NCBI GenBank assembly: GCA_903880095.1
Contig: CAIRNX010000028.1
Location: 1-64,000 of the forward strand
Source of the DNA: an uncultured Micrococcales bacterium
GTDB lineage: Bacteria; Actinomycetota; Actinomycetes; Actinomycetales; Microbacteriaceae
DNA: 64,000 bases
Direction of reading: 5' to 3'
Shown here: positions 24,012-40,894 of the stretch, one piece after another
Layout of the letters: every line of letters begins with the position of its first letter
How positions within the stretch are numbered: the first letter of the stretch is position 1
Notes under the pieces: generated by a model
Seen by the model: only the letters and a program-made list of their open reading frames with translations
What the model was told of the DNA's origin: nothing
Database searches by the model: none
Made by a program: the position numbers and the translations under genes

Positions 24012-24512
24012 CTAATCCTGTTTTAGTGGCTTGGGCCCGGTGGCATCGATGCCCCAGTGAACTGCCAGGATTCCGCAGTAGGCACCGAAGATGCCGATCG
24101 AGCCGATTGTGTCTGGGCCGACGAATGCGAATAGCGACCAAACCACTGCGTGAAGTGACCAGTTGATGATGTGGCTGGTGTTTTGTTTCTTAAACCAGCC
24201 GTTGCGAAAGTTGACTGCGGTTTCTGAGAGCAACTGAAAGAGCGTCGCAATCAGCACGAGCATGTAGAAGGCGTCGTCGAGGTTAGGCAGTTTGCCCATT
24301 AGCGAGGCGAAGGTGATGGCGAGCACCAAACCAATAAGGTTTAGCGAGGCCACGAAACCGCGGTGGCGGTTGGCGACTGTCTCTATGCCAAAAACCAGGA
24401 CGGCGAACACCAAAACGGCGATGACTGCAACGCCCGAGTTGCCTCGGTTGAAGATTGCGCCAGATGCGCCTACCGCGGCCGCAAGGGCTTTGCCTGCTTG
24501 AAGCTTGTTCAT
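24012..24512 (-). CDS. Polytopic membrane protein, unknown function
   Basis: A 166 aa protein with about five hydrophobic helices (IFNRGNSGVAVIAVLVFAVLVFG, LIGLVLAITFASL, AFYMLVLIATLFQLL, HAVVWSLFAFVG, IFGAYCGILAVHWG). I do not recognise the family. Its ATG overlaps the dnaB stop as TAATG, so it is translated together with dnaB. Nothing in the sequence suggests a role in replication. Confidence 0.65.
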   Translation of the reverse strand: MNKLQAGKALAAAVGASGAIFNRGNSGVAVIAVLVFAVLVFGIETVANRHRGFVASLNLIGLVLAITFASLMGKLPNLDDAFYMLVLIATLFQLLSETAVNFRNGWFKKQNTSHIINWSLHAVVWSLFAFVGPDTIGSIGIFGAYCGILAVHWGIDATGPKPLKQD

Positions 24513-25879
24513 TACTCTGGAGTCTTTTTGCTCATGTTCATAAAACGAGAGTACGCGCCCTGGAACAAGACTGCGACTGTGTCGGTAGGTCCAGAGCGCT
24601 GTTTCGCCAAAATGATGTCGGCTTCGCCGGCGCGAGGGCTGTCTTTTACGCCCATGTCTTCGCGGTGAAGCAAGATCACGACGTCGGCGTCTTGCTCAAG
24701 CGAGCCAGACTCACGAAGGTGAGAGATTTCAGGCTTCTTGTCGGTCTTTTGCTCAGAGTTTCGGTTTAGCTGAGAGATCGCGATGACAGGAACATTTAGT
24801 TCTTTGGCAAGAAGCTTCAGCGAGCGTGAGAACTCTGAGACTTCTTGCTGGCGCGATTCAACCTTTTTGCCGGAGGTTAGGAGCTGGATGTAGTCGATGA
24901 CGATCAACTTGAGGCCAAGGCTTGAGGCCAGGCGGCGGCATTTGGCTCGAATCTCAACGAGTGTGAGGTTTGCCGAGTCGTCGATGAACAGCGGGCTGTC
25001 GTTTAGGCCGCCACGGGCGTGGGCCAGCTTCTTCCATTCGTCTTGACCAACGGTTCCACCACGCATGTTTTGCAGGCGAACATCTGCCTCGGCACTTAGT
25101 AGGCGAAGTGCGATTTCGGCGCGGCTCATTTCGAGCGAGAAGAAGAGCACCGGTGCCTTCTGCTTGATTGCCGCGTGACGGGCGAAGTCGAGGGCAAGGG
25201 TTGACTTGCCAACACCCGGGCGGGCGGCGAGGATGATCAACTGGCCACCGTGTAGGCCGTGGGTGAGCTTGTCTAGTTCGTAGAAACCGGTTGAGATGCC
25301 AGACATCTCGCCGCCGCGCTTCTGGGCTAGCTCGATTTCTTCAACGGCAGCCTCGAGCGAGACGTTTAGAGGCACGTAGTCTTCGCTGAATGCAGATGAA
25401 CCGACCGCGTAGATTTCGGCCTGAGCCTGGTTGACGAGGTCTTCGACTTCACCTTCGTTTGTGTAACCCATGGCTGCAATCGAGGTGCCGGCCTCAACCA
25501 AGCGGCGAAGCACGGCCTTTTCTTGCACGATTTTGGCGTAGAAGCCCGCGTTTGCAGCAGTTGGCACAACGCTGGTTAGGCTGTGCAGGTAGTCGGCACC
25601 GCCGGCGCGAACCAGGTTGCCGGTGCGAGTTAGCTCGGCGGTGACGGTGATTACGTCGGTTGGTTCGCCGCGGCCGTATAGAGAGTAGATAGCGCTGAAG
25701 ATCAGCTCGTGCTTTGGTGCATAGAAGTCGTGCGAGCCAACGTATTCGAAGACGTCGGCAACGGCGTCTTGAGAGAGCAACATACCGCCGAGCACAGATT
25801 GTTCTGCCTGCTGGTCGTTAGGCAAAACGCGGTCAACCGCACCGATTTGATCACCCTTTGGGGCTGGTGTGAAAGCCAT
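24512..25879 (-). CDS. dnaB: Replicative DNA helicase DnaB
   Basis: A 455 aa hexameric 5'-3' helicase that opens the replication fork. The N-terminal domain (DQQAEQSVLGGMLLSQDAV, about 22-40) interacts with primase. The RecA-like C-terminal domain has Walker A ARPGVGKSTLAL (about 220-231), Walker B LIVIDYIQLL and the GSLEQDADVVILLHRE motif. No intein interrupts it, unlike mycobacterial DnaB. AGGAGG lies six bases before the ATG. The 345-bp region upstream holds a phased array of DnaA boxes. The candidate loader dciA is at 45892-46374. Confidence 0.96.
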   Translation of the reverse strand: MAFTPAPKGDQIGAVDRVLPNDQQAEQSVLGGMLLSQDAVADVFEYVGSHDFYAPKHELIFSAIYSLYGRGEPTDVITVTAELTRTGNLVRAGGADYLHSLTSVVPTAANAGFYAKIVQEKAVLRRLVEAGTSIAAMGYTNEGEVEDLVNQAQAEIYAVGSSAFSEDYVPLNVSLEAAVEEIELAQKRGGEMSGISTGFYELDKLTHGLHGGQLIILAARPGVGKSTLALDFARHAAIKQKAPVLFFSLEMSRAEIALRLLSAEADVRLQNMRGGTVGQDEWKKLAHARGGLNDSPLFIDDSANLTLVEIRAKCRRLASSLGLKLIVIDYIQLLTSGKKVESRQQEVSEFSRSLKLLAKELNVPVIAISQLNRNSEQKTDKKPEISHLRESGSLEQDADVVILLHREDMGVKDSPRAGEADIILAKQRSGPTDTVAVLFQGAYSRFMNMSKKTPE

Positions 25880-25948
25880 GGCTACCTCCTGTTGCGCACT
25901 ACGACTTGTCTAGCATTCACCATGGACACCTTTAAAGCGAACCGGAGT

Positions 25949-26171
25949 TGTGGACAAATTGTGGAGAACTGTGGAGACACGCCGTATTAACTGTGCATAA
26001 CCTGTGGAAAACTTGTGGACAAATTGTGCATAACTATCTGGGAAGCCAGTAAACAAAAGGGATTTAGCCTGTGGAAAAACAATTTCTGCAAAGTCTAAAC
26101 TTCAGGCTGAGGCTTGTGGACTCGCCCGGTTCCGACACGCCAGAGACCGGGTTATACACAAGTTATCCACA
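25949..26171. promoter_or_regulatory. Phased DnaA-box array upstream of dnaB
   Basis: At least nine DnaA-box-like 9-mers lie in the 345-bp rplI-dnaB gap. Same orientation: TGTGGACAA 25949, TGTGGAGAA 25960, TGTGGAGAC 25970, TGTGCATAA 25992, TGTGGAAAA 26003, TGTGGACAA 26014, TGTGCATAA 26025, TGTGGAAAA 26070. Opposite: TTATACACA 26152, TTATCCACA 26163. Starts step by 11 bp (10 once, one slot skipped at 25981). TGTGCATAA, TTATACACA and TTATCCACA all fit TTATNCACA. The rest of the gap holds the rplI terminator and presumably the dnaB promoter. Confidence 0.85.
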
Positions 26172-26184
26172 GGGTAAAAGGAAA

Positions 26185-26208
26185 GGCGCCGGGTCGAAAC
26201 CCGGCGCC
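26185..26208 (-). terminator. Terminator of the rpsF-ssb-rpsR-rplI operon
   Basis: Perfect 10-bp stem GGCGCCGGGT / ACCCGGCGCC with a four-base loop, starting 17 bases past the rplI stop. On the minus strand it is followed by TTTCCTTTT. Confidence 0.92.
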
Positions 26209-26224
26209 GCCCTATTGGATCTGG

Positions 26225-26677
26225 TTACTTTGCAGCCACAACCTGAAGGGTTACGGTAGCAACTACGTCGCCGTGAAGGCGAACGGTGGCCTCGTGGTTG
26301 CCAGTTACGCGAACTGGAGCAACAAACTCAACCTTGCGCTTGTCGACCTCTGGAAGACCAGCGGCAACGATAGCGGCAACAACATCGGCGGTCTTGACGG
26401 CGCCGAAAAGACGACCCTCTTTACCGGCCTTAACGCTGATGCGGATTGGCTTCTCTTCAAGGCGAGCCTTGAGGGTCTGTGCCTCTTCAACGGTTGCAAG
26501 TGCACGAGCTTCGCGGCCTGCGCGAATCGACTCAACCTGCTTCTCGCCACCCTTGCTCCAAACGACTGCAAAGCCCTTTGGAATCAAGAAGTTGCGAGCG
26601 TAACCGTTCTTTACTTCAACGACGTCGCCTGCAGAACCAAGGCCGGAGACCTCGTTGGTCAGAATAACCTTCGACAT
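26225..26677 (-). CDS. rplI: 50S ribosomal protein L9
   Basis: A 150 aa two-domain protein. The N-terminal rRNA-binding domain has the L9 signature ([24 protein letters not shown], about 14-37); a long connecting helix (about 42-75) leads to the C-terminal domain with [18 protein letters not shown]. Fourth gene of rpsF-ssb-rpsR-rplI, 13 bases after rpsR, with a GGAG site, and followed by a strong terminator. Confidence 0.97.
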
Positions 26678-40696: not shown

Positions 40697-40854
40697 GTTC
40701 TTTGCCAAATTATTTTTTCAACCCAACAGCCTCGCACAGACATTTGTAACAGTTTGGTTTAGACACGCCGATACGATTTGCAATTGCATTCGGATATTCG
40801 GTTGAATACCTCAGTGGCATCTACCCACGAGGTTCTCCACAACCCAAAATCGAG

Positions 40855-40894
40855 TTATCCACAGTTGTGCACAAATCACTTAGCCTGTGGAAAA
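40855..40894. promoter_or_regulatory. DnaA boxes upstream of dnaA
   Basis: TTATCCACA at 40855 (perfect), TTGTGCACA at 40865 (one mismatch, itself palindromic) and TGTGGAAAA at 40886, all within 72 bases of the dnaA ATG. The last lies in a 15-mer, TTAGCCTGTGGAAAA (40880-40894), that recurs exactly upstream of dnaB. Likely used for dnaA autoregulation and/or as part of the origin. The remaining 40697-40854 stretch is AT-rich and holds no gene that I can see. Confidence 0.8.

Follow-up and report, generated by a model that had tools for sequence, protein, structure and literature searches.

The gap between rplI and dnaB in an uncultured Micrococcales bacterium holds 11 9-mers that resemble DnaA boxes. 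Nine are on the dnaB coding strand, and the two at the rplI end are on the other. Boxes upstream of dnaB keep an 11-bp helical phase throughout the genus, the family Microbacteriaceae and the class Actinomycetes. The array is likely to be a cooperative operator at the dnaB promoter, on which DnaA bound along one face of the DNA would tune transcription, with FtsR as a possible second input both in the genus and in roughly half of the family.

DnaA boxes between rplI and dnaB

The window analysed here is a stretch of 64 kb from a 1.435-Mb draft assembly (42 contigs, 92% complete). The identities of dnaB, rplI, ssb, rpsF, dnaA and dnaN were borne out by Pfam. Among the 80 loci searched, the best match of DnaB was an uncultured Micrococcales MAG with 89% identity, and further close matches carried the labels Microbacteriaceae or Aquiluna. 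The gap occupies positions 25880-26224, with both flanking genes on the minus strand and ssb and rpsF farther up (Table 1). The hairpin 3' of rplI would set the transcription of rplI apart from that of dnaB. An Rfam search of 25700-26400 gave no RNA element at the gathering threshold.

Table 1. Features of the dnaB-rplI region, in window coordinates
Feature	Position	Strand	Basis
dnaB, replicative helicase	24512..25879	-	Pfam PF00772, PF03796
Probable dnaB promoter -10, TAGACA, 36 bp below the proximal box	25907..25912	-	conservation in the alignment only
Conserved TGTC upstream of the probable -10	25925-25928		alignment
Main phased array of seven DnaA boxes (25949, 25960, 25970, 25992, 26003, 26014, 26025)	25949..26033	-	box scan and relatives
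CGGCGTGT element within the array	25977..25984	-	alignment
In-phase DnaA box TTTTCCACA, 121 bp from 25949	26070..26078	-	box scan
FtsR-type 25-bp inverted repeat AAGCCTCAGCCTGAAGTTTAGACTT, score 29.9	26091..26115	-	matrix from ftsZ promoters
Weak DnaA box GAGTCCACA, sharing one base with the FtsR-type site	26115..26123	-	box scan
Distal inverted pair of DnaA boxes TTATACACA, TTATCCACA, 11 bp apart	26152..26171	+	box scan
Terminator-like hairpin 3' of rplI	26185..26208	-	sequence
rplI, ribosomal protein L9	26225..26677	-	Pfam

A 9-mer was taken as a DnaA box when it had CACA at positions 6-9, T at position 4 and at most two mismatches to TTRTCCACA. Three of the 11 gap boxes are exact, six have one mismatch and two have two. 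The steps between successive boxes on the dnaB coding strand are 11, 10, 22, 11, 11, 11, 45 and 45 bp, and the inverted pair at 26152/26163 has a step of 11 as well. The number found compares with a mean of 0.32 and a maximum of 4 boxes in 2000 first-order Markov sequences of the gap's composition. When the 64 kb were scanned in 923 windows of 345 bp at steps of 69 bp, the gap was the densest, against a mean of 0.24; overlapping windows aside, the next densest were the dnaA upstream region with 6 boxes and the dnaA-dnaN interval with 5. TTRTSCACA occurs 25 times in the whole assembly, with 5 of the matches inside 25949-26171, a span of 223 bp in which 0.004 would be expected at the assembly-wide rate, and another 6 around dnaA, two of them being both strands of one palindrome.

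All ten starts of 9-mers named in the original prediction were right, and one extra, weak box was added at 26115. The boxes are mostly in one orientation, as had been noticed, since eight of the ten named starts are on the minus strand, which is the dnaB coding strand, and only 26152/26163 are on the plus strand. They are indeed denser than those of the dnaA-dnaN interval, where 5 boxes lie in 324 bp and the same-strand steps of 19, 78 and 9 bp show no 11-bp phase. The distance of 14.7 kb that had been given to oriC stands as the distance to the dnaA start; the dnaA-dnaN interval itself is ~16 kb away.

Helical phasing among relatives

Phasing was measured on same-strand pairs of boxes (at most two mismatches) no more than 80 bp apart upstream of dnaB. 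The genus set, for which 34 same-genus genomes were matched, consisted of 26 of 30 loci including the present one, four being dropped since their contig piece held no dnaB. The family set took one genome from each of 57 of the 58 genera other than its own (G069, with no dnaB match, was left out). The class set consisted of 75 of 114 genomes outside the family; two of the 75 had less than 300 bp upstream, and the dnaB start was placed from search coordinates alone for 27 class loci.

Pairs whose distance departs from a multiple of 11 by no more than 2 bp made up 99% of 250 in the genus (26 loci), 98% of 307 in the family (57 other genera) and 97% of 211 in the 75 class loci from outside the family, and still 97% of 80 when each of 34 families of the class was represented by one locus. 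With boxes of at most one mismatch the values were 99% in genus, family and class and 19 of 19 in the one-per-family set. The random expectation is 5/11 (45%) by simple arithmetic, and none of 1000 random placements attained the observed phase score in any set. The common same-strand distances were 11, 12, 21, 23, 33, 44, 45, 55-57, 65 and 76 bp. Homology contributes to this signal, yet the distances vary between lineages, and because of this variation indels seem to be tolerated mainly in helical units. The original prediction had called for an alignment of relatives, with loss of the phasing as its refutation; by the distances measured here the phasing is kept in genus, family and class.

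In all 26 genus loci, 56 of 57 family loci, 69 of 75 class loci and 31 of 34 loci taken one per family, the 450 bp upstream of dnaB contain at least one box with 0-1 mismatch; at least two such boxes are found in 26, 50, 55 and 22 of them, respectively. The Markov null for 600 bp gives about 0.1 box per promoter. Under a stricter rule, which asks for at least four boxes and p<0.05 in each single promoter, only 24 of the 58 promoters in the family were enriched, and 16 of 49 in the class. The smallest genome of the family set (G072, 0.9 Mb, locus L114) has neither a 0-1 mismatch box upstream of dnaB nor an FtsR-type site before it, though dnaB, dnaA and ftsZ are kept.

Individual boxes turn over among relatives. 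The near relative L082 has nine boxes at identical places and lacks those at 26070 and 26115, and 12 of the 23 other aligned loci have a better box (0-1 mismatch) at position 26115. By eye, a conserved stretch at 26037-26060, between the boxes at 26025 and 26070, is CNGGTCA-like in the family and CCAGT-N5-ACTGG-like in part of the genus.

An FtsR-type site upstream of dnaB

FtsR is a MerR-type activator of the division gene ftsZ. The FtsR-type repeat was found with a matrix whose training set consisted solely of ftsZ promoters, 60 of 62 from the genus and family, and which was run over the 450 bp upstream of dnaB. By this matrix the repeat ranks first in the 64-kb window, where the runner-up scores 17.6, and the site at the genome's own ftsZ scores 20.9. 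Scores of at least 18 were found in 25 of 26 dnaB promoters of the genus, against none of 260 in the null (maximum 12.6); the lone exception, L087, scores below 8. In the family 30 of 57 dnaB promoters score at least 8 (null 0.2%) and 27 of 57 fall below 8. In the class 2 of 76 score at least 8, and one of these is Microbacteriaceae, which leaves 1 of 73 outside the family. Across 80 loci, positions with a score of at least 8 are 107 times commoner in the 500 bp before dnaB (59 of 39,624) than elsewhere (7 of 504,968). Regions upstream of dnaA served as negative controls: that of the window scored -2.0 and held no FtsR-type site; in eight other Microbacteriaceae genera the values were all -2.7 or less, two weakly placed regions outside the family gave -11.3 and -14.0, and three of the 13 were unplaceable.

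In the ftsZ promoter of Corynebacterium glutamicum the FtsR site is a 25-bp inverted repeat (PMC6683498). The repeat upstream of dnaB has the same form, and ftsZ promoters across the genus and family carry motifs of this class; the published operator is at ftsZ, whereas the site here is at dnaB near DnaA boxes (PMC6683498). The main text of that paper does not name dnaB (PMC6683498). A fixed core of 14 symmetric positions from the C. glutamicum site was replaced by the ftsZ-trained matrix: with the core, the present genome's dnaB site (10/14, p=0.17) and ftsZ site (9/14, p=0.55) were not significant, and many same-genus sites were. The FtsR case rests on the ftsZ-trained matrix.

The FtsR gene itself is present in the genome, its product passing the NCBIfam equivalog NF050798 with 208 bits against a cut-off of 150, and the gene order is FHA protein, ftsR, second MerR gene. 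A search of solved structures with the FtsR protein gave no match at E 1e-5. Since the genome has both this gene and an FtsR-type site at dnaB, dnaB and ftsZ may share FtsR as a regulator. It is rather improbable that the repeat is instead bound by another MerR-type protein, such as the neighbour of ftsR, with its likeness to the ftsZ site reflecting a half-site preference shared by MerR proteins. The genome does encode two further MerR_1 proteins, one of them adjoining ftsR, but the matrix was built from ftsZ promoters only and has its best match of the 64 kb at 26091-26115, and the dnaA control promoters score -2.0 or less. Both the rank and the control could also fit a paralogue with the same site preference.

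Of 139 same-strand boxes in 25 same-genus loci, 9% (about 12) overlap the FtsR-type site by one base. Elsewhere, at a core score of at least 8, such an overlap was seen in just two family promoters out of 57 and two class promoters out of 78, and as a family-wide rule it was rejected for being rare outside the genus.

Proposed control of dnaB and alternative roles

The array stays with dnaB in all 18 loci in which rplI is not adjacent. Three of these have rplI and dnaB more than 800 bp apart, with no box (0-1 mismatch) in the 450 bp after rplI and 4, 4 and 10 boxes before dnaB; the other 15, without rplI in the 2.1-3.0 kb in view, have 2 to 6 boxes before dnaB. Several of the 18 loci are congeners, so they do not count as 18 independent events. 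Because the boxes go with dnaB when rplI is not adjacent, the array is an element of dnaB and not of rplI. In the 26 same-genus loci the proximal box is 62-124 bp from dnaB.

No consensus sigma-70 promoter was found in 25860-26260. Conserved elements were read from two alignments, of 24 and of 25 selected loci among the matches listed. Their order is an AACCYTnAA...TTnAGGGTT inverted repeat, a box, the main boxes, CGGCGTKT, more boxes and the probable -10. Among the matches listed, CGGCGTKT is nearly invariant at a fixed place between the boxes of the family dnaB array. GCGTKT and a box lie no more than 40 bp apart in 24 of 26 promoters of the genus and 49 of 57 of the family, where single-base shuffles give 2.7 and 6.7. 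The GGCGTGT element was considered as a site for WhiA, whose motif is GACAC/GTGTC (PMC3781837), and was dropped; the family form is mostly CGGCGTTT, and the 5-mer is too short to test. GCGTKT was also tried as an element common to the dnaA and dnaB promoters and was rejected, as it has no consistent place in the placeable dnaA upstream regions.

DnaA binds upstream of dnaB in Mycobacterium tuberculosis (in vitro, IDAP-seq) and in M. smegmatis (ChIP-seq) (PMC7738170). The view that no actinobacterial site of this kind had been described was therefore wrong. In M. tuberculosis the DnaA I282T variant binds more weakly upstream of dnaB, and the mutant under-expresses dnaB (PMC7738170). The mycobacterial promoter and the present array are alike in having a DnaA-linked site upstream of dnaB and outside oriC in an actinobacterium, and a cluster of DnaA boxes lies directly upstream of dnaB here, as expected of a promoter of the mycobacterial type. 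In contrast to the present locus, the available text on the mycobacterial site describes no box map, phasing, conservation or FtsR site (PMC7738170). Boxes upstream of dnaB have also been predicted in Caulobacter crescentus, where dnaB is a member of the DnaA regulon (PMC8203912, citing Hottes 2005); this species differs in being an alphaproteobacterium, and the available text describes neither a phased array nor FtsR (PMC8203912). The low-affinity arrays of Escherichia coli oriC consist of 9-mers in the same direction exactly 2 bp apart, on which DnaA loads cooperatively along one face (PMC4451416). They share the 11-bp step with the present array, but belong to an origin with an unwinding element, and the array here is in a promoter region with no AT-rich stretch.

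The original prediction had offered three functions for the array: a DnaA-controlled dnaB promoter, a titration site or a second part of the origin. The array is best read as the first, which agrees best with the linkage to dnaB and with the mycobacterial binding data, and a second origin part is disfavoured. In the proposed mechanism, several DnaA molecules would occupy the 11-bp array cooperatively on one DNA face, in the manner of the low-affinity sites in E. coli oriC, and this loading would adjust dnaB transcription. The direction of control is taken from the one mycobacterial mutant; most likely DnaA activates rather than represses dnaB when active DnaA is plentiful, and helicase supply would then track initiation capacity. 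FtsR could occupy the 25-bp site just upstream, near a DnaA box, in the genus and about half of the family, adding a second, division-linked input at dnaB and possibly some interplay with DnaA.

A main role in titration is possible but less likely than promoter control, and the chance given to it is small. The array would then be mainly an origin-proximal sink for DnaA, through titration or datA-like inactivation, that limits re-initiation and lies before dnaB only incidentally. The cluster is origin-proximal, as expected of the datA/titration type, at 14.7 kb from dnaA, its boxes are dense and partly exact, and dnaB is no more than about 80 kb from dnaA in the genomes measured. According to reviews, box clusters near oriC curb untimely initiation in Streptomyces coelicolor and Bacillus subtilis (PMC5742627, PMC4585315), and the S. 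coelicolor cluster (Smulczyk-Krawczyszyn 2006, via PMC5742627, PMC4585315), which is cited as repressing such initiation, is like the present one in being actinobacterial and outside but near oriC. Against this reading, the boxes accompany dnaB when rplI is not adjacent, are mostly oriented along dnaB and, within the genus, stay in a narrow range of distances from its start, and the same gap holds the FtsR-type site and conserved promoter elements; titration alone requires none of these.

It is very unlikely that the array forms part of a split origin as its second module, where replication would start or DnaA would load: same-face phased arrays are the low-affinity architecture of E. coli oriC (PMC4451416), but no AT-rich unwinding element lies beside the array, the gap having no 40-bp window of at least 75% AT and the dnaA-dnaN interval having nine such overlapping windows and boxes of its own; dnaA and dnaB lie about 15 kb apart here but some 52 kb apart in G074 and some 78 kb in G127, so that a fixed geometry with oriC is not kept; and the bipartite origins described span up to about 2000 bp, usually with dnaA as the spacer gene (PMC4285127).

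Control of dnaB by DnaA, the favoured reading, is of a known kind, and the class-wide helical phasing and the FtsR-type operator look new. Among the open-licence full-text matches listed, there was no report of a phased array at an actinobacterial dnaB or of FtsR at dnaB. The class-wide, strictly phased and dnaB-linked array offers a testable rule with its 11-bp step, and the phasing is itself a natural source of data on the packing of DnaA along double-stranded DNA outside origins.

The coupling of replication and division in actinobacteria is, to our knowledge, poorly known, and one promoter may couple the two, the FtsR site common to ftsZ and dnaB being a simple candidate for a direct link. 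Put tentatively, with nearly as much for it as against it, the dnaB promoter of many Microbacteriaceae might be a hub of DnaA and FtsR at which helicase supply is jointly set by initiation and division control, with a phased DnaA part that goes back to the ancestor of the class Actinomycetes and an FtsR part added in the family.

Some minor observations were made elsewhere in the genome. In a 2-kb profile of window positions 23000-55000 the GC skew near dnaA has an unusual sign: it is mostly positive from 23 to 31 kb and from 35 to 41 kb, and negative from about 41 to 55 kb. Upstream of dnaA, window positions 40833-40894 hold five DnaA boxes, among them an overlapping palindromic pair (TTGTGCACAA), and this looks like dnaA autoregulation. 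An isolated pair of boxes, TTATCCACA/TTATGCACA, 12 bp apart, was found near a contig end at G000:C6:48623/48635, extending to 48643 (L313:1024-1044). A deaminase/reductase-like gene, similar to ribD by eye only, begins about 200 bp downstream of this pair.
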